Shown: in pieces, positions 27,174-36,103 of the stretch
How positions within the stretch are numbered: position 1 is the stretch's first letter
Layout: every line of letters begins with the position of its first letter
DNA from: Elusimicrobia bacterium HGW-Elusimicrobia-3
GTDB taxonomy: Bacteria; Elusimicrobiota; Elusimicrobia; Elusimicrobiales; UBA9959
DNA length: 36,742 nucleotides
Assembly (NCBI GenBank): GCA_002840355.1
Contig: PHAL01000024.1
Span: 1 to 36,742, forward strand
Direction: 5' to 3'
Position numbers and translations under genes: made by a program
The notes under the pieces: generated by a model
What the model was told of the DNA's origin: nothing
The model's input: only the letters and a program-made list of their open reading frames with translations
Database searches by the model: none

Positions 27174-27199
27174 CAGGTCAAGAATCAAGACCTGACCCC
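27174..27199. repeat. short REP-like inverted repeat overlapping the type III PKS stop
   Basis: CAGGTC (27174-27179), a nine-base loop and GACCTG (27189-27194), continuing into ACCCC. Read on the minus strand it begins GGGGTCAGGTCTTGATT, a kind of sequence seen flanking REP-associated elements. It shares the GGGGTCAG core with the ends of the MITE-like element near 14979. The last codons and the stop of the PKS gene lie inside it. Confidence 0.5.
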
Positions 27200-28257
27200 G
27201 ATACATTTTTCAGAAGATAGGCGTGCGCGGACAGGCCGGCGCCGAAGGCCAGCATTACCACCAGCTCGCCGGGCTTCAGCCCGTCGCGCCGCAGTTCCTC
27301 GAGGATGAACCAGACGGTCGCCGACGACATGTTCCCCAGCCCGGCCAGCACCTCGCGGGTGCAGCGCATGTCTTCGTCCGCCAGGCCAAGTTTCTCCTGC
27401 ACGGCCTTTATGACGTTCTCGCCGCCGGGGTGTATCGCCCAGCGGCCGATATCCCTGCGCCTCAGCCCGTTGGCGGTCAGGAGTTCCTCTACCAGCGCGC
27501 CGGCCGTTTCGGCCGCCAGCCCCGGCAGCCTGGCGGAAAGCTGGTTATGCAGCTGGCCGTTCCTGTGGACGAAGCGGATGTCCTCCCTGTACTCCGGCGC
27601 GTAGCGCGAAGCCGAGGACACCATGGCGAACCCGCCGGGCCTGGCCCGCACCACGGCCGCGGCCGCCCCGTCCCCGAACAGCGCGTTGGAAACGATCAGG
27701 CTGGCGTCGTCGCCCATCTGGAAGGTGCAGCTGCAGACCTCCACCGAGACGCTCAGCACCGCCCCGCCCGGCCGCTCCCTGGCCAGCGCCCCCGCGAGCT
27801 GCAGGTTGGGCACCGCGCCCCCGCAGCCGCTGCCTACCAGGTCATAGGCCCTCACCGACCGGTTCAGATCCAGCTCCTCCACCAGGTAGGTGGAAATTCC
27901 GGGGCACAGGTAGCCCGTGCAGGTATTCACTACCAGCCCGTCTATGTCGCGCGGCGCCAGCCCGGCCTTTTTAAGCGCGGCGCGGCCCGCCTCGGCGGAA
28001 AGTCTCAGCGCCCAGCGGGCGAACCGCTCCGCCCGCCTGTCCGGGTCTTCGTCCACCAGCGCGCGCGGGTCCTCGAACGCGAAACGCCGGCTCTGCACCG
28101 ACGGATGCGCGAACACCCGCTCCATGAGCTTCAGGCTGCCCGGCTTAAGCCTGCCGGTATAATTTTGCTTAAGGAAGGCCGAACCGGCGGCCTGGTTTAT
28201 CGCCAGCGGCGGCAGCGCCGTGGCTATCCCGTCCACGAAACAATCCGGAGCCTTCAT
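27178..28257 (-). CDS. type III polyketide synthase (chalcone/stilbene synthase family)
   Basis: A 359-residue homodimer-type ketosynthase that extends an acyl-CoA starter with malonyl-CoA without an acyl carrier protein. The catalytic triad is visible as C145 in VGSGCGGAVPNL, H276 in WAIHPGGENV and N309 in LGNMSSATVW. The 33-residue His-Asn spacing equals that of plant chalcone synthase, and GFG-like FGAGLSAHA lies near the C-terminus. Related FabH/KAS III enzymes have a shorter His-Asn spacing, which disfavours that call. The ATG at 28257 overlaps the radical SAM stop as ATGA. The C-terminal SGSGLDS runs into a REP-like repeat. Product (alkylpyrone, alkylresorcinol or other) cannot be read. 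Confidence 0.88.
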   Translation of the reverse strand: MKAPDCFVDGIATALPPLAINQAAGSAFLKQNYTGRLKPGSLKLMERVFAHPSVQSRRFAFEDPRALVDEDPDRRAERFARWALRLSAEAGRAALKKAGLAPRDIDGLVVNTCTGYLCPGISTYLVEELDLNRSVRAYDLVGSGCGGAVPNLQLAGALARERPGGAVLSVSVEVCSCTFQMGDDASLIVSNALFGDGAAAAVVRARPGGFAMVSSASRYAPEYREDIRFVHRNGQLHNQLSARLPGLAAETAGALVEELLTANGLRRRDIGRWAIHPGGENVIKAVQEKLGLADEDMRCTREVLAGLGNMSSATVWFILEELRRDGLKPGELVVMLAFGAGLSAHAYLLKNVSGSGLDS

Positions 28258-29681
28258 GCGTTTACCCCCATTGCCCGCAGCCCCCGCCTTAACAGGCGGG
28301 TGTGCTTCCAAACCGGTTGCCTGACCCCGGCGAAATGCGCCAGCCGGTGCAGCCGGGAAAGGAAAGGCAGGGCCAGCGAATCGGTATTGATGAAGTTCAT
28401 GTTTTCCCTCGTCGCCGCCGCGACCCTTTCCAGCAGCCAATCCTTCTTCACCCCCGGCGAAAGATAGAATACCGGCTCCAGCATGCCGGCGGGCGGTACT
28501 TCCAGCGCGCCCTCCCGCCTGGCGGCGGCCTCGAGGGGCGTCCCGGGGTATATCCTTATCCCGGTATTGAAAAACACCGAGTCCGAAGGCCGGACCCGGC
28601 TCCGGGCGAATTCCAGCGTGCGCTCCACCGTCGCGCGCGTTTCCCCGGGCCCGCCCAGCATGAAGACCCACATTGTCGGGATCCTATGCCCGGCCACAGC
28701 CCGGGCCGCGCGCTCGAGGTGCGCGCTGCTGTAGTTCTTGCCCAGCGCGGCCAGCACGCCGTCGTCCGCGCTCTCGGCCGTGATGCCTATGCCGGCGAAC
28801 CCGGCCCGCTCCATGGCGTCAAGCAGCGGGGCGTCGGTGAACTCCGGGTTCAGTTCCATGGTGTGCAGGCGGACGCCGGCCGCGTCTTTCGCCAGCAGTG
28901 CGCAGAGCTCGAGGGCGTGGGCATAAGGCGAATTAAAAACGTTGTCCACGAACTCTATGTCCCGCACGCCGGCGGCGGCCAGCCTGCGCACGGCGCGCGC
29001 CGCGTCGGCCGGCGGGTAAAGCCGGTAGTCACGGCCTTCGGCGGCGTTGTAGGTGCAGTAGACGCAGCCGAAAGGGCAGCCGAGCTTGGTCTTTAAAGGC
29101 ACGGCGCTCATCTGCCGGGCGTAAGCCCTCAAGTCGAGCCAGCGGGCGAAGTCCGGGAAGAACTCCGGGCCGCAGCCGGGCGAACGGTAGGCCGGCGTCG
29201 CGGCGTATTTCCCGTTCACCAGCGCGCCCACGCCGGGGACCGAAAGCGGGTCGGCGCCCGAGCATAGCGCCTCGACAAGGCGCGGGAAAACAGCGGCCCC
29301 GTCCCCGGTAACGCAGCAGTCCGCTCCCGTGCTCCGCAAAATGGCCTCCGGCATTATGGGCACGGCCGCCCCGCCCAGCACCAGCTTTGCCCCGCAGGCC
29401 CGGCGCGCCGCGGCTATCAGCCCGGCCGCCTCGCGCGTGTACAAGACCGGCGCGCGCATGTCGTTGTTGTCGATATTGCGCAGCGAGAAGCCGGCCACGT
29501 CGGGCCGGAACTCGCGGCAGGCCCTTTCAAGCGCTTTCTGCGGGGCAGGCTCGAACATCAGGTCCAGCAGCCTCGTCTCATGCCCGGCGTCCAGCGCGGC
29601 CTGGGCGGCCGCGCAGGCGCCGTAAGGCATCACGGCCATCGGCTGGCGGCTGCGGTTGAGGGCGACAACGAGTATTTTCAT
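28254..29681 (-). CDS. B12-binding-domain radical SAM protein
   Basis: A 475-residue enzyme. Residues ~1-150 form a cobalamin-binding-type Rossmann domain (KILVVALNRS, AGHETRLLD, KLVLGGAAVPIMPEAIL). The radical SAM core holds the [4Fe-4S] ligands C202, C206 and C209 in GCPFGCVYC, followed by a TIM-barrel with IEFVDNVFN, MELNPEF and WVFMLGGPGETRAT. Class-B members methylate unactivated carbons or build rings; related enzymes act in lipid and natural product pathways. It is coupled (ATGA) to the type III PKS and follows the superoxide dismutase by 45 bp. Acting on the PKS product is inferred from that coupling. Confidence 0.92.
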   Translation of the reverse strand: MKILVVALNRSRQPMAVMPYGACAAAQAALDAGHETRLLDLMFEPAPQKALERACREFRPDVAGFSLRNIDNNDMRAPVLYTREAAGLIAAARRACGAKLVLGGAAVPIMPEAILRSTGADCCVTGDGAAVFPRLVEALCSGADPLSVPGVGALVNGKYAATPAYRSPGCGPEFFPDFARWLDLRAYARQMSAVPLKTKLGCPFGCVYCTYNAAEGRDYRLYPPADAARAVRRLAAAGVRDIEFVDNVFNSPYAHALELCALLAKDAAGVRLHTMELNPEFTDAPLLDAMERAGFAGIGITAESADDGVLAALGKNYSSAHLERAARAVAGHRIPTMWVFMLGGPGETRATVERTLEFARSRVRPSDSVFFNTGIRIYPGTPLEAAARREGALEVPPAGMLEPVFYLSPGVKKDWLLERVAAATRENMNFINTDSLALPFLSRLHRLAHFAGVRQPVWKHTRLLRRGLRAMGVNA

Positions 29682-29726: not shown

Positions 29727-30416
29727 CTATTCGTGGAAGCGCTGGTCCGCCGCCTCCCACTCTATGGCGTTCATGAAGGCCTCTATGTACTTCGCCCTTT
29801 CCAGCCGGTAGTCGGTAAGATAGGCGTGCTCGAACACGTCCATCACCAGCAGCGGCACGCAGCCGGCCAGCTGCCCGCCGTCGTGCTCGTTCACCCAGGC
29901 GTTGAACAGCCGCCCGGAGACCTTGTCCTTGTAGAGCACCGCCCAGCCTATGCCGCGCATGGCGCCGGTGGCCGTAAAGTCCTTCTTCCAGGCTTCGAAG
30001 CTGCCGAAACCTTCCTGTATCGCCTTGAGCACGTGGCTGTCCATCCTCGGCGTGCCGGCGCCGCCCAGGTTGCCGAAGTAGAGTTCGTGCAGCCGCATGC
30101 CGCCGAACTCCCAGCCAAAGCGCCGCTTAAGTTCGGCGTATTCCGGAGTGCGCTCCTTGCCGTCGGCCAGCAGCGCCGAGAGCTTCTCCGACAACGCATT
30201 GACGTTGGTGACGTAGCCCTGGTAGAGCTTCACGTGGTCGGCTATCAGCTTTTCGCTGAAGCCGGGCATCCCGGCAAGGCCCGGGTATCCGATTGCTTTG
30301 TAACCCTGTATGGTAAGCTGCATTTTCCCCCCTTTGTCCGCGTTCTGCTGGGCGTTCACGGCGAGCGCGGCCGCTACGCTCGCTATTAAAGCATACGCTA
30401 CGATGGTCTTTTTCAT
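29727..30416 (-). CDS. secreted Fe/Mn-family superoxide dismutase
   Basis: Converts superoxide to oxygen and peroxide. The 229-residue protein has an N-terminal signal peptide (MKKTIVAYALIASVAAALAV, then NAQ), so it acts outside the cytoplasm, unlike most Fe/Mn enzymes. Metal ligands are H61 in ADHVKLYQGYV, H110 in MRLHELYFGN, D193 and H197 in DVFEHAYLTDY. Aligned rigidly with E. coli FeSOD, H61 is one place off the first ligand, as in a divergent clade with HxKLYxGYV. AAGGAGAAGAT precedes the ATG. It sits between korB and the radical SAM gene. Confidence 0.9.
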   Translation of the reverse strand: MKKTIVAYALIASVAAALAVNAQQNADKGGKMQLTIQGYKAIGYPGLAGMPGFSEKLIADHVKLYQGYVTNVNALSEKLSALLADGKERTPEYAELKRRFGWEFGGMRLHELYFGNLGGAGTPRMDSHVLKAIQEGFGSFEAWKKDFTATGAMRGIGWAVLYKDKVSGRLFNAWVNEHDGGQLAGCVPLLVMDVFEHAYLTDYRLERAKYIEAFMNAIEWEAADQRFHE

Positions 30417-30435: not shown

Positions 30436-31284
30436 CTACCTGAAGTCCGCCAGCAGCGGGGCAATGTCGACGGCTGAAATATCGGCGCCGGCCAGCGGCG
30501 GCAGGGCGTCCAGGCCGCTGAGCTCGCCGTAGTCGGGCCGGGGCTTGCTGTAGATGACGCCTATGGGCAGGCGGTCGCGTTGTTCAGCGAGCGCCAGCGC
30601 GGCGGCCTTGCTGGCGGAGTCATGCTCCGGCCCTACCTTGTATACCCGCTTGCCGTACCAGTCGAAAGTGTTCAGCTTATTGAAAGAGATGCAGGGCTGC
30701 AGCACGTCTATAAGCGAGAAGCCCTTGTGGGCTATCCCGGCCAGTATCAGGTCTGCCAGATGCTCTTTCTCCGCCGCGTAGCCGCGCGCCACGAAACCGC
30801 AGCCCAGCGCCAGCGCGGTCTCGAGCGGCGGGAAGGGGGCCAGGATCACCCCGCCGGGCTGTATCTTGGTCCGCATGCCGGGCTCGGACGTGGGCGAGGC
30901 CTGGCCCTTGGTCAGGCCGTAGATCTGGTTGTCGTGGACTATCACCGTGATGTCCGAGTTTCGCCGGATATTGTGGATGAAGTGGTTGCCCCCCTCGCCG
31001 TAGCAGTCCCCGTCGCCGGTGGTGACTATCACCGTCAGTTCCCGGTTGGCTATCTTCGCCGCGGCCGCGGCGGGCAGCGCCCGGCCGTGCAGGCCGTTGA
31101 AGAAGTTGGCCTTGATGTAATGCGGCATCTTGGCCGCCTGGCCTATGCCCGAGACCAGCAGCAGCTCCTGCGGCTTCCTGCCCAGTTTCACCAGCGCGGT
31201 CTTGAGCGCGGCCTGTATGCCGAAGTTGCCGCAGCCGGGGCACCAGGCCACCGGGTCGGTCGAGTTGAAATCCTTTAATTCCAT
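30436..31284 (-). CDS. korB: 2-oxoacid:ferredoxin oxidoreductase, beta subunit
   Basis: The thiamine-diphosphate subunit that decarboxylates a 2-oxoacid and passes electrons to ferredoxin. The 282-residue protein starts MELKDFNSTDPVAWCPGCG, with cluster cysteines C15 and C18, then the ThDP/Mg motif GDGDCYGEGGNHFIHNIRRN, NQIYGLTKGQASPTS and the cysteine in VLQPCISFNKLN. The ATG overlaps the last base of the alpha-subunit stop (TGATG). An open frame extends upstream but is the alpha gene in another frame. 2-oxoglutarate or a branched/general 2-oxoacid is the likely substrate; pyruvate is possible. Confidence 0.93.
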   Translation of the reverse strand: MELKDFNSTDPVAWCPGCGNFGIQAALKTALVKLGRKPQELLLVSGIGQAAKMPHYIKANFFNGLHGRALPAAAAAKIANRELTVIVTTGDGDCYGEGGNHFIHNIRRNSDITVIVHDNQIYGLTKGQASPTSEPGMRTKIQPGGVILAPFPPLETALALGCGFVARGYAAEKEHLADLILAGIAHKGFSLIDVLQPCISFNKLNTFDWYGKRVYKVGPEHDSASKAAALALAEQRDRLPIGVIYSKPRPDYGELSGLDALPPLAGADISAVDIAPLLADFR

Positions 31285-32978
31285 CAGTCCCCCCTTTCCA
31301 GCGCGGCCGTCACTTCGTCCACCGTGAATGGGCGCCCGTCGTATTTCAGCACCGAACCGGTGACTTCCAGGCCCGTTTCGCGGCGCAGCAGCCGGGCCAG
31401 CTGGCCGGTGGCGTTGTTCTCCACGGTCAGCACCCGCACCGCGCCCTGAAGCCCGGCCAGCGCGGCCTGCGCCGGCAAGGGCCAGACCTGCGGAAAATGC
31501 ACGAAGCCCGCGTCCCTGACGGCGGCGCAGGCGTCGCGCAGCACGCCCAGCGTGGAGCCGAAGCCGCAGAGCATGGTCTTCGCGCCCGGGTTCACTATCG
31601 TCGGCGTCAGCGCTTCTTTGGCCAGGCCGGCGAGTTTTAGGTGCAGGCGCTTGCCCGTCATCTTGACGCGGACCTCCGCGAGTTCCGTGATATGTCCCTC
31701 GGGGCCGTGCTCGTCGCTGTCGGCCGCGGCCAGCGGGCCAGGGCGTCCCGGCACTGGCCGCGGCGAGACGCCGTCGGCGGCGTAGGCATAGCGGTCCGCC
31801 GGCGCGTCGGCGCCGGACCTTAAGAGCCTGCCCCGGTCCGGGGGCTCCGCGGCCTGGTCCGGGAAGGCGATATTGGTGAAAGATTCGGCCAGGTGCTGGT
31901 CGGACATGATCAGCGCGGGTACCTGCCAGCGCTCGGCGGTGTTGAAAGCGCGCTTGGCCGCCAGGAAACATTCCTCCGGCGAGCCAGGCGTATAGACGGC
32001 GCGCGCGAACTCGCCGTGCCCGGCGTGCAGGACGAACTCCAGGTCCTCCTGCGCGGTGCGCGTCGGAAAACCCGTAGCCGGCCCCGGCCGCATCACCACG
32101 GCCAGCACCAGCGGGGTTTCGGTCATCGCGGCCAGGCTGACGCCCTCGCACATCAGCGCGAAGCCGCCGCCGGAACTGGCGGTCATGGAGCGCACGCCGG
32201 CATAAGCCGCGCCCACGGCCATGTTCACCGCCGCTATCTCGTCCTCGGCCTGCTCCACTATTATGCCGAACCTGGCGGCGTAGTCCGCCACGGTGTTCAT
32301 AACTCCGGTGGAGGGCGACATGGGATAAGCGGTATAGAATTTGCAGCCGGCCGAGATCGCGCCCAGCGCCAGTGTTTCGCTGCCGGCCAGCAGGCAGTCG
32401 CAGCCGTGCGGCACGGCGTCTACCCTGGCCAGGCGCTCTTTGATATGCCCGGAGACGTAATCGTACCCCTTGCGGGCGGCTGCCGCGTTCTTCTCGGCCG
32501 TCTCGCCGCCTTTGGCCGAAAACTCCCGCCGCGCGGCTTTAGCGGCGTCGTCGAAACTTTCACCGGTAAGCGCGGCTACCGCGCCCAGCGCGACAGAGTT
32601 GGCGTATATGGTCCCGCCCGCCTCCTGCGCCAGCGCGTACAGCGGAACGTCCACCCATCTTTCCCGGAGTTCCACTATGCCGTATTTCTGCTTATCCAGC
32701 ACCATCAGCCCCCCGGGCGCCAGCTCCGCCTGATTGGCCGCCACCGCGTCCTTATCGAGGGCGACTATGAGGTCGCATTTCTCCCTCGGAGAATGCACCG
32801 GCACCGCCGCGGCGCGCACCTGGAAGAAATTGGTGCCGCCCCGGATGCGGGACATGTAGTCCTGTATGGCGAAGATGTGCCTGCCGCTGTCTTTGTACAT
32901 GCGGCATAGCATCATCCCGGCGGACACTACGCCCTGCCCGGCCTCGCCGGAAATACGTACGTTGATCTCTAGGCTCAT
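31284..32978 (-). CDS. korA: 2-oxoacid:ferredoxin oxidoreductase, fused gamma-alpha subunit
   Basis: A 564-residue fusion. Residues 1-~185 are the gamma domain (INVRISGEAGQGVVSAGMML and YMSRIRGGTNFFQVR). From ~205 the alpha domain follows with ALGAISAGCKFYTAYPMSPST, then VEQAEDEIAAVNMAVGAAYAG and MTASSGGGFALMCEG. Such gamma-alpha fusions are common in KorA-type enzymes. A separate ferredoxin-like delta subunit is not encoded here. The start overlaps the pgl stop as ATGA, so this enzyme is made in one operon with the oxidative pentose phosphate genes. Ser replaces Thr in the usual YPITPS motif region (YPMSPS). Confidence 0.93.
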   Translation of the reverse strand: MSLEINVRISGEAGQGVVSAGMMLCRMYKDSGRHIFAIQDYMSRIRGGTNFFQVRAAAVPVHSPREKCDLIVALDKDAVAANQAELAPGGLMVLDKQKYGIVELRERWVDVPLYALAQEAGGTIYANSVALGAVAALTGESFDDAAKAARREFSAKGGETAEKNAAAARKGYDYVSGHIKERLARVDAVPHGCDCLLAGSETLALGAISAGCKFYTAYPMSPSTGVMNTVADYAARFGIIVEQAEDEIAAVNMAVGAAYAGVRSMTASSGGGFALMCEGVSLAAMTETPLVLAVVMRPGPATGFPTRTAQEDLEFVLHAGHGEFARAVYTPGSPEECFLAAKRAFNTAERWQVPALIMSDQHLAESFTNIAFPDQAAEPPDRGRLLRSGADAPADRYAYAADGVSPRPVPGRPGPLAAADSDEHGPEGHITELAEVRVKMTGKRLHLKLAGLAKEALTPTIVNPGAKTMLCGFGSTLGVLRDACAAVRDAGFVHFPQVWPLPAQAALAGLQGAVRVLTVENNATGQLARLLRRETGLEVTGSVLKYDGRPFTVDEVTAALERGD

Positions 32979-33697
32979 TTTTTCCTCCGCGCCGGCCGCT
33001 GTCGCGCCGGGCTTTCGTCCGAGTAAAGCAGGTAAAGCTCGCCGTGCGGGCGCAGCCGCCCGGCCGGCAGCGCCGCGTCGCCGGCGGCGGCCCTGGCGAA
33101 GACCGCTTTTTTAGCCCGCCCAATAGCCATCAGCGCCACCGTCGGGGCCGCATTCAGCGCCGGGAGAGAGAGCGTAATTCTCGAGACCGGCTTTACGCCC
33201 GCCGGCGCCCTGGCCGGCAGCACCGGCCCTGCCGCGGCGCGCAGGGCGGCGGAGCCGGGGAACAAGGAGGCTATATGCCCGTCCTCGCCCAGACCCAGAA
33301 AGACCAGATCCGGTACGCCGGCGCGGCCGGCCAGTTCCTTTATCTCCCGCCCGTAAGCGGCGGCCGCCCGCCGTGGCGGGCCCGGCTTTACCGCGTGCAG
33401 GTTACGGGGCGGTATGGCTATCTTTGAAAAGAAAGACCTGGAGGCCTGGCCGAAATTGGAGGCCGGCGAACCGGGCGGGACCAGGCGCTCGTCGGCCATG
33501 AAAAAATGGACGCGGGACCAGTCCGCCCTAGCGGCGGCCAGGGCCTCGAAGAGCGCCAGCGGTGTCCTGCCGCCGGGCAGGGCGACCAGCAGGGGGCCTT
33601 TCCTTTCGCGCAGGGCTTTGGTCAGCAGCCCGGCGGCGAAGCGCGCCAGCGCTCCTTGCTCGCGGAACCTCTTTATGACGCGCTTTTTCAAAGCCAT
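32975..33697 (-). CDS. pgl: 6-phosphogluconolactonase
   Basis: Hydrolyses 6-phosphogluconolactone, the second step of the oxidative pentose phosphate pathway. The 240-residue protein (ATG at 33697) has LLVALPGGRTPLALFEAL, FFMADERLVPPGSPASNFG and LVFLGLGEDGHIASLFPG, all diagnostic of the NagB-fold lactonase family (DevB). A longer open frame upstream lies inside zwf and is rejected. The start overlaps the zwf stop by 10 bp and the stop overlaps korA as ATGA. Confidence 0.95.
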   Translation of the reverse strand: MALKKRVIKRFREQGALARFAAGLLTKALRERKGPLLVALPGGRTPLALFEALAAARADWSRVHFFMADERLVPPGSPASNFGQASRSFFSKIAIPPRNLHAVKPGPPRRAAAAYGREIKELAGRAGVPDLVFLGLGEDGHIASLFPGSAALRAAAGPVLPARAPAGVKPVSRITLSLPALNAAPTVALMAIGRAKKAVFARAAAGDAALPAGRLRPHGELYLLYSDESPARQRPARRKK

Positions 33698-35169
33698 GCC
33701 CGGCCGTCCTTTTCTATCAGGGCCGCCGCCTGGGCCGGGCCGTCCGAGCCCTCCGGATAAGTGTAAAGCGAGCCGCCGCCGGGGTCCGCCTGCCAGGCCG
33801 CCAGCAGGGGCGAGAGGAATTCCCACATGAACTGCATCTCGAAGACGCTCAGGAACAGCGTCTGGTCGCCGGCCATGGCCTCTATCAGCAGCCGCTCGTA
33901 ATCGGTGGGGGCCGCGGCTTCCTCGGCGTGCTCCCTGTAACCCAGCCGCATGGTCCTGGGCACGAAGCAAAGCTTGGGCCCCGGGTGTTTGGCGATAAGG
34001 GAAAAAGTCATGTCTTCTTCGGGATGGATGTTGAAGGTGAAGACATTGGGGTAGCCGATATCCGTGCCGTGGAATACCCCGTGTTCCGGTTTTTTGTAGA
34101 CCAGGCTGATCTTGGTCCGTTTGGCGCCTGTCTTTTTCCCCGCCCGCACGTAGAACGGCACGCCGCGCCAGCGGTCGTTGTCGACGAAGAACCTGAAGGC
34201 GATAAAAGTTTCCGCGGCCGAGCCCGCGGCCACGCCCGGCTCCCGCCGGTACCCCTCGTACTGCGCCCGCACCGCGCAGGCCGCGGCGGCGGCCCTTTCC
34301 CGCGCAGGGATGCTGCCGAAAAAGCGCAGCTTCTCGGCCTTGAAATCGGTGTCCCTGAACGAGGCCGGCAGGTCCATGGCCGTAATGGCGGCCAGCTGCA
34401 GCAGGTGGCTCATCATGTCCCTGGCCAGGCCCAGGTTCTCGAAAAAACCGGTGCGGCCTTCCAGGCCCAGCGCCTCGAAGACCGTTATCTGCACGTGGTC
34501 TATGCAGCGGCTGTTCCAGGTTTCGTCGAATACGCTGTTGGCGGAGCGCAGCGCCAGGACGTTCTGCACGGTTTCCTTGCCGGTGAAATGGTCTATGCGG
34601 TAGATCTGGCTTTCGTCCGCGCCCTGCTTCAGCCCGGCGTCCACGGCGCAGGCGCGCTCCAGGCTGGCGCCGTAGGGCTTTTCTATAATCAGCCTGGACC
34701 AGCAGGTGCAGTCCCCCGGGTCGGCCAGCAGGCCCGCGTCCCGGATCCCGTCCGTTACCGTGCCGAAGGCCGCGGGCGGGATGGCCAGGTAAAACAGGCG
34801 CTTCTTACTTACGCCGTGCTTCGCGTCCAGCTCGTCGAGGCGGGCCGCCAGGCCGCGGTAGAAGTCAACGCTCGTATAGTCGGCCCGCAGGTACTCCACG
34901 CGGCCGAGAAAATCGGCCAGACAGTCCCCCTCGGCGCTGAGGCCGGCGCGGGCGAGGAGCCCCGTCAGGCGGCTTTCCAGCTCAGGGCGGGTCAGCGCGG
35001 TGCGCGCTATCAGCAGGATGTAGAAATTATGGGGCGCCAGCTTTTTCTGACAGAGGCCGAAGAGCGCCGGCAGGATCTTCTTCCCGGCCAGGTCGCCCGT
35101 GGCGCCGAAGAGAACGAAGCCGCAGTTGTCCGGGCGTGTCTCCTGGCAGAAACCTATAGTGTCGGTCAT
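33688..35169 (-). CDS. zwf: glucose-6-phosphate 1-dehydrogenase
   Basis: Oxidises glucose 6-phosphate to the lactone, first step of the oxidative pentose phosphate pathway. The 493-residue protein has the cofactor loop GATGDLAGKK (22-31), EKPYG (163-167) and the signature RIDHFTGKE (191-199) around the active site. In the cofactor loop GKK replaces the KRK of the Leuconostoc enzyme, so the arginine that contacts the NADP 2'-phosphate there is Lys. Coenzyme preference is therefore open. It lies between gnd and pgl. Confidence 0.97.
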   Translation of the reverse strand: MTDTIGFCQETRPDNCGFVLFGATGDLAGKKILPALFGLCQKKLAPHNFYILLIARTALTRPELESRLTGLLARAGLSAEGDCLADFLGRVEYLRADYTSVDFYRGLAARLDELDAKHGVSKKRLFYLAIPPAAFGTVTDGIRDAGLLADPGDCTCWSRLIIEKPYGASLERACAVDAGLKQGADESQIYRIDHFTGKETVQNVLALRSANSVFDETWNSRCIDHVQITVFEALGLEGRTGFFENLGLARDMMSHLLQLAAITAMDLPASFRDTDFKAEKLRFFGSIPARERAAAAACAVRAQYEGYRREPGVAAGSAAETFIAFRFFVDNDRWRGVPFYVRAGKKTGAKRTKISLVYKKPEHGVFHGTDIGYPNVFTFNIHPEEDMTFSLIAKHPGPKLCFVPRTMRLGYREHAEEAAAPTDYERLLIEAMAGDQTLFLSVFEMQFMWEFLSPLLAAWQADPGGGSLYTYPEGSDGPAQAAALIEKDGRAWL

Positions 35170-35200
35170 TGGCGTAGGGTGGCCCGCAGCCGCGGGCCCT

Positions 35201-36103
35201 TTATTCTTTAGCCGCCGCGTGCCCGCCGAACTCGCGGCGGAGCGCCGCGGTCAGGCGGTCGCTGAAGCTGCTCTTTGCCCGGGAACTGAAGCGCCTGAAC
35301 AGCGCGGCTGAAATGGCGGGCAGCGGCACTCCGAGGCGCACACCCTCTTCTACCGCCCACCGCCCTTCTCCGGAGTCGCCCACGCGCCCGGCTACCTGCT
35401 CCAGCCCGGGGTCCTTCCGAAAGGCCCCCTGCGCCAGTTCCAGCAGCCAGGAGCGGATTACGCTGCCCCGGTTCCAGAGCCCCGCCACGGCCGCCAGGTC
35501 GGCGCCGCCGTAAGGCGAGGCCTTCAGCAGCTCGAAGCCCTCGGCATAGGCTTCCATCAGGCCGTACTCTATGCCGTTGTGCACCATTTTCAGGAAATGA
35601 CCCGCGCCGGCCGGCCCGCAATGCAGGCAGCCGCCGGGCTGGCAGAGCGCTTTGAGGAACGGCTCCGCCCTCCTATAAGCCGGCTTTGTGCCCCCGGCCA
35701 TTATGCAGTAGCCTTCTGCGAGGCCCCAGATGCCGCCGGAAACCCCGGCGTCGAGGAACTCCACGCCGCGGGCCGCGGCTTCTTTGGCGTGCCGCAGCGC
35801 TTCTTTCCACTCGGAGTTGCCACCGTCTACGATCATGTCCCCGGGCCCGAGCAGCGGCAGCAGGCTTTGGAAAATAGTTTCGGTAACTTCGCCGGCTGGC
35901 AGCATCAGCCAGACTATGCGTGGGGCCTCCAGCGCGGCCACCGCTTCGGCCAGGGTGCCGGCCGCTACCGCGCCTTTGGCGGCCAGTGCGTCGGCTTTTT
36001 CCGGGGTGCGGTTCCACACTACGGGCTTTATCCCGTTGGCGATCAGGCGCAGCGCCATATTGGCGCCCATCCGGCCCAGGCCGGCGATAGCGATTGAGTT
36101 CAT
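35201..36103 (-). CDS. gnd: 6-phosphogluconate dehydrogenase, short (GndA/YqeC) type
   Basis: Decarboxylates 6-phosphogluconate to ribulose 5-phosphate. At 300 residues it is the short form (classical Gnd is ~470). The Rossmann loop GLGRMGANMALRL (8-20), DGGNSEWKEALRHA, the DAGVSGGIWGLAEGY substrate region and the catalytic KMVHNGIEYGLMEAYAEG segment are present. NRT at 31-33, after the second strand, is the residue set associated with NADP binding in this superfamily; many short Gnd enzymes use NAD instead. GGGGGAG precedes the ATG. It is the first gene of the long minus-strand directon. Confidence 0.95.
   Translation of the reverse strand: MNSIAIAGLGRMGANMALRLIANGIKPVVWNRTPEKADALAAKGAVAAGTLAEAVAALEAPRIVWLMLPAGEVTETIFQSLLPLLGPGDMIVDGGNSEWKEALRHAKEAAARGVEFLDAGVSGGIWGLAEGYCIMAGGTKPAYRRAEPFLKALCQPGGCLHCGPAGAGHFLKMVHNGIEYGLMEAYAEGFELLKASPYGGADLAAVAGLWNRGSVIRSWLLELAQGAFRKDPGLEQVAGRVGDSGEGRWAVEEGVRLGVPLPAISAALFRRFSSRAKSSFSDRLTAALRREFGGHAAAKE

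Follow-up and report, generated by a model that had tools for sequence, protein, structure and literature searches.

A type III polyketide synthase (PKS) gene that overlaps a gene for a cobalamin-binding radical SAM enzyme (rSAM) raises the question of whether the two proteins act together and, if so, on what product. The pair lies in the 36,742-nucleotide stretch of Elusimicrobia bacterium HGW-Elusimicrobia-3 analysed here (contig PHAL01000024.1; the window). Beyond an earlier note on this DNA, the analysis found the distribution of the pair amongst anammox bacteria, a pattern of replacement amongst the genes that accompany related PKSs, a WrbA neighbour, and the closeness of the rSAM to the 'ladderane' family TIGR04072.

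Gene pair in the window

The coordinates, strand, gene order and ATGA overlap recorded earlier, with a span of 27178-29681 that includes both genes, are all correct (Table 1). A longer PKS reading frame (27178-28671) was rejected, as its GTG start falls deep within the rSAM gene and the conserved start is the ATG at 28257. The overlap, or a start codon allowing one, is present in all 12 testable Elusimicrobiota pairs (spacing of -4 or -1), and the spacing between the rSAM and PKS genes in 28 anammox-class genomes ranges from -4 to +431 nt. Of the claim that the two proteins are made together, the overlap stands, and the translational coupling that it suggests has to be read alongside the wider anammox-class gaps. 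The superoxide dismutase gene next to the pair in the window does not adjoin it in the relatives inspected. Neighbouring genes differ between groups, such that the conserved unit is the pair and not a larger cluster.

Table 1. Positions of the gene pair, its neighbours in the window and features at related loci
Feature	Position	Strand	Remarks
Cobalamin-binding rSAM	29681-28254	-	475 aa; first gene of the pair
Type III PKS	28257-27178	-	359 aa; second gene of the pair
ATGA overlap of rSAM stop codon and PKS start codon	28254..28257	-	read from the sequence
Fe/Mn superoxide dismutase	29727-30416		signal-peptide-like N-terminus; immediately upstream of the rSAM gene
2-oxoacid:ferredoxin oxidoreductase beta and alpha, 6-phosphogluconolactonase, glucose-6-phosphate dehydrogenase, 6-phosphogluconate dehydrogenase	30436-36103	-	
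PKS copy in a Lac Pavin MAG	L036:278-1160		without residues about 37-92; pseudogene or assembly error
Fibrobacteres type III PKS locus	L041:8013-11053		divergent methyltransferase and U32-family protein with a cysteine cluster adjoin the PKS
PAPS reductase-like and COQ7-like ferritin-family genes, Scalindua	L037:11204-12372		downstream side of the PKS; COQ7-like gene two genes downstream
PAPS reductase-like and COQ7-like ferritin-family genes, Scalindua	L039:11984-13067		downstream side of the PKS; COQ7-like gene close downstream

Distribution and conserved pairing

Amongst 150 relatives the PKS is present in nine genomes, all of one family, and its close relatives elsewhere belong to Candidatus Scalindua, another anammox-associated planctomycete and one Fibrobacteres record. 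When 341 Elusimicrobiota were searched by profile, the pair-type PKS was recovered in 13 genomes, including four outside the class of the window in which the rSAM gene is directly upstream and the junction overlaps or nearly so. Of 75 anammox-class genomes, about 31 (fragments counted) have the pair-type PKS, and an rSAM profile places the rSAM gene directly upstream. In this survey of two phyla and the one Fibrobacteres record, the two genes share a strand, with the rSAM first, in 40 of the 40 genomes where both could be placed (12 Elusimicrobiota and 28 anammox-class). The pair is clearly not unique to this genome, and pairing conserved across two phyla strongly supports a functional link between the enzymes, from which we infer that they act together.

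Phylogenetically, the rSAMs of the pair form one clade (support 100/98) relative to other TIGR04072-type enzymes, and the PKSs form one clade with support that is not fully secure (90/78). Protein divergences of the PKS and rSAM are correlated across 36 genomes (r = 0.96), and dN/dS values of 0.11-0.24 for both genes in seven Elusimicrobiota genomes indicate purifying selection.

The anammox carriers include a genome (G376, locus L169) whose hydrazine synthase alpha subunit is identical in sequence to the Kuenenia stuttgartiensis protein (PDB 5c2v), and its PKS exceeds the Pfam cut-offs for chalcone/stilbene synthases. Rattray et al. 2009 (PMC2649909) report that PKS searches of K. stuttgartiensis gave none, and a 2016 study (PMC4790861) likewise states that no polyketide synthases were found. 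No description of the pair appears in the titles, abstracts and selected passages of the open-access literature searched.

Replacement of tailoring genes around related PKSs

The PKSs that branch just outside the pair clade have different partners, adjoining a methyltransferase and an FAD-binding oxidoreductase (L062, L063, L065, L066 and L069; in L067 the start of the methyltransferase is also visible at the contig end). Methyltransferase and FAD-binding genes likewise adjoin the more distant PKSs of L072-L074. In contrast, none of the 29 pair loci compared (9-21 kb each) has a homologue of the methyltransferase, the FAD enzyme or U32 proteins, which places these loci outside the polyketide quinone operons and puts numbers to the contrast with methyltransferase- and flavin-enzyme-bearing PKS loci drawn earlier.

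Two kinds of described operon offer a comparison. The PkqABC polyketide quinone and Srs-type phenolic lipid operons of actinobacteria, where operons of a PKS, a methyltransferase and an oxidoreductase make polyketide quinones (PMC9927152), resemble the pair in combining a PKS with tailoring gene(s) in one transcription unit, but tailor with a SAM methyltransferase and an oxidoreductase/hydroxylase, whereas the pair has a single cobalamin rSAM; the further likeness of a quinone product is suggested for the pair by WrbA (see below). The planctomycetal and cyanobacterial methyltransferase-oxidoreductase-PKS operons (hierridin HidABC) have a PKS of the same family as the pair, and those of planctomycetes make alkylresorcinols, with one methyltransferase that probably C-methylates and C-methylation reported to follow the PKS (PMC10896814). 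The sister PKSs of the pair in Elusimicrobiota sit in loci of this type; HidABC-type operons hold two tailoring genes, and pair loci lack both and have the rSAM gene instead.

The Fibrobacteres PKS has a third set of partners (Table 1) and may represent a second O2-independent tailoring variant, as the U32 proteins UbiU/V are described as O2-independent hydroxylases of ubiquinone synthesis (PMC6747719). Taken together, tailoring around related PKSs is exchanged three ways, between a methyltransferase with an FAD enzyme, a methyltransferase with a U32 protein, and a B12 rSAM, a pattern that fits adaptation to low O2.

The oxygen setting of the Elusimicrobiota carriers differs in one respect: a haem-copper oxidase (E<1e-100) was found in eight of nine carriers of the methyltransferase/FAD-type PKS clade and in none of 13 pair carriers (Fisher p = 2.8e-5), a descriptive contrast, as carriers cluster by family and the 22 genomes are not independent. 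COX1-family matches of ~1e-55 in some pair carriers appear, from their ~760-aa frames, to be quinol NO reductase-like and were excluded from the O2 reductases. Cytochrome bd is present in seven of the nine pair carriers in the family of the window, its own genome among them, and these carriers are therefore not strictly anaerobic.

Features of the two enzymes

The PKS matches Chal_sti_synt_C (PF02797, 72.7 bits) and Chal_sti_synt_N (PF00195, 62.5 bits; cut-off 27 each) as well as FAE1_CUT1_RppA. The intact Cys-His-Asn triad noted before (C145, H276, N309) is invariant in 36 of 36 pair members and identifies the protein as a type III PKS. The closest solved sequence is pks18 (1ted, E 3.9e-37) and the AlphaFold model resembles the PKS11, PKS18 and CHS folds; with sequence and model nearest to long-chain pyrone synthases, the ring may be a pyrone too. 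Trp273 was considered as a resorcinol marker, as it resembles the resorcinol-diagnostic Trp, and was rejected; because the pyrone synthase pks18 has the same Trp, the residue is not diagnostic of ring type.

The rSAM combines an N-terminal B12-binding domain (PF02310, 50.7 bits) with a radical SAM core (PF04055, 76.7 bits) whose Cx3Cx2C cysteines (C202, C206, C209), reported as intact in the earlier note, are invariant in all 36 pair members, making it a class B cobalamin-dependent rSAM. The best NCBIfam match is TIGR04072 (rSAM_ladder_B12), at 269.9 bits against a cut-off of 360; the three pair rSAMs scored reach 270, 294 and 316 (316.3 for the Kuenenia pair copy), while the K. stuttgartiensis copy that lies in a FASII cluster scores 440 and so passes. 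The pair rSAM shares the domain order and RN-(I/L)-D motif of the TIGR04072 enzymes, but these are FASII-linked, and the pair enzyme scores below the cut-off, forms its own clade and has a type III PKS as partner. Clustering with hopanoid enzymes, named in the earlier note as a refuting outcome, was not observed. Scores for the hopanoid enzymes HpnR and HpnJ and for BchE (TIGR02026) are 54, 52 and 47 bits against cut-offs of 650, 577.6 and 481. Eight weaker matches to the rSAM occur in the same genome (best, 69.6 bits). Carriage of the rSAM on plasmids was rejected on zero matches in a plasmid collection.

By profile (E 7e-37) and fold (TMq 0.77; model pLDDT 73), the closest solved relative of the rSAM is the tryptophan 2-C-methyltransferase TsrM (6wte), an aromatic C-methylase that acts on the indole ring; AprD4 and the methylase MgmA are also amongst the nearest by sequence. 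Within an RN-I-D-N motif, R68 aligns with Arg69 of TsrM, and the equivalent Arg is retained in 36 of 36 pair rSAMs, as it is in 16 further family-type homologues. Being common to all TIGR04072-type relatives compared, it is not a mark of methylation. The position of the cluster-capping Glu273 of TsrM is occupied by Val (V248) in all 36 pair members, and the score against the TsrM family TIGR04428 is 88 bits (cut-off 500). In TsrM, Arg69 blocks the lower face of cobalamin (PMC8992657). Since this Arg is kept and Val replaces the cluster cap, the pair rSAM is predicted from its residues to have a TsrM-like cobalt environment with an FeS cluster free to bind SAM, and for the same reason the non-radical mechanism of TsrM is not simply transferable.

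Proposed reaction and product

On balance, with confidence that is evenly divided, we regard the pair as a self-contained two-enzyme cassette that would make an aromatic polyketide lipid and tailor it, both independently of O2. The PKS would extend an acyl starter with malonyl-CoA and close the chain to a ring, most likely of the alkylresorcinol type, and the rSAM would then act on this product, most likely by transferring a methyl group from methylcobalamin to a carbon of the electron-rich ring. The rSAM would replace the SAM methyltransferase of the sister PKSs, and perhaps the O2-dependent FAD hydroxylase as well, with independence of O2 as the presumed reason. Of the earlier suggestion of C-methylation or rearrangement of an alkylpyrone or resorcinol lipid, C-methylation stands as the likeliest reaction, as it is favoured by the relationship to TsrM and by the tailoring of alkylresorcinols by a C-methyltransferase in a canonical locus; the product class is as yet a putative assignment.

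A quinol/quinone end product, which an adjoining WrbA would hold reduced in many anammox-class bacteria, is plausible. In 13 anammox-class genomes a gene for this NAD(P)H:quinone oxidoreductase (TIGR01755, 190.6 against a cut-off of 132.5) shares the strand of the rSAM gene and is located upstream of it, mostly as the next gene (one small gene intervenes in G360 and G363), and such a gene also precedes one sister PKS (L181); it was not found at the remaining anammox-class pair loci or at any Elusimicrobiota pair locus. A missing menaquinone pathway was rejected as the rationale for the pair: the genome of the window lacks MqnA/D and has MenA, and would therefore not require a second quinone, and other carriers have MqnA/D.

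The same neighbours bear on an alternative that we consider unlikely, in which the rSAM is a BchE-like, O2-independent oxidase or hydroxylase that takes the place of the FAD hydroxylase and converts a resorcinol to a hydroquinone or quinone. Non-methylating B12 radical SAM enzymes such as BchE and OxsB exist, and BchE yields hydroxy and keto intermediates without O2 (PMC13142503). The absence of the FAD hydroxylase from pair loci, the adjacent WrbA and the COQ7-like gene downstream of the PKS in two Scalindua loci (Table 1) would all agree with such a role, but the low score against TIGR02026 and the presence of two methylases amongst the nearest solved sequences do not, and the C-methyltransferase would be lost without a substitute.

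That the rSAM instead acts ahead of the PKS, modifying (e.g., methylating or cyclising) an acyl starter that is then extended, is quite improbable. The rSAM gene comes first in every testable genome, and the TIGR04072 relatives encoded in FASII clusters, alongside ketosynthases, FabG and FabZ, make acyl-ACP substrates plausible for the family; against this, the pair rSAMs form a clade outside the FASII-linked enzymes, no ACP or FAS genes were recognised beside the pair loci by ORF-level inspection, and the tailoring enzymes of sister loci act post-PKS. We likewise assign little probability to a small non-lipid aromatic, either DpgA-like or another soluble polyketide, as the PKS product, with the pair yielding a secreted metabolite: DpgA is the best NCBIfam match of the PKS, at 172 bits far below the cut-off of 425, but its closest solved relatives, by sequence as by fold, are two long-chain pyrone synthases (pks18 and PKS11), transporter and regulator families are not conserved beside the pair, and the sister loci resemble phenolic-lipid operons.

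More tentatively than the cassette itself, one type III PKS and one cobalamin rSAM may together yield, without O2, either a membrane quinone derived from a polyketide or a phenolic lipid that carries a methyl group in anammox bacteria, K. stuttgartiensis included, and in Elusimicrobiota, a route that would have been overlooked because the PKS resembles FabH. If true, anammox bacteria, whose model genome reportedly gave no PKS matches, would have an unrecognised lipid or redox cofactor, and the pair would provide a cobalamin rSAM enzyme with a guessable substrate.

A role in ladderane biosynthesis, to which the TIGR04072 match and the frequency of the pair in the anammox class could point, is highly implausible given that the pair rSAMs scored fall below the family cut-off passed by the FASII-cluster copy, that Elusimicrobiota carry the pair, and that the pair is absent from 19 of 40 hydrazine-synthase genomes, some incomplete (42 had the domain; G406 and G407, with 11 and 16 copies, were set aside), an absence so frequent that it argues against an essential role. 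Separately, two Elusimicrobia genomes (G004 and G007; L189 and L190) hold a TIGR04072-like B12 rSAM gene within FabF/FabG/ACP-type clusters that resemble ladderane-candidate clusters.
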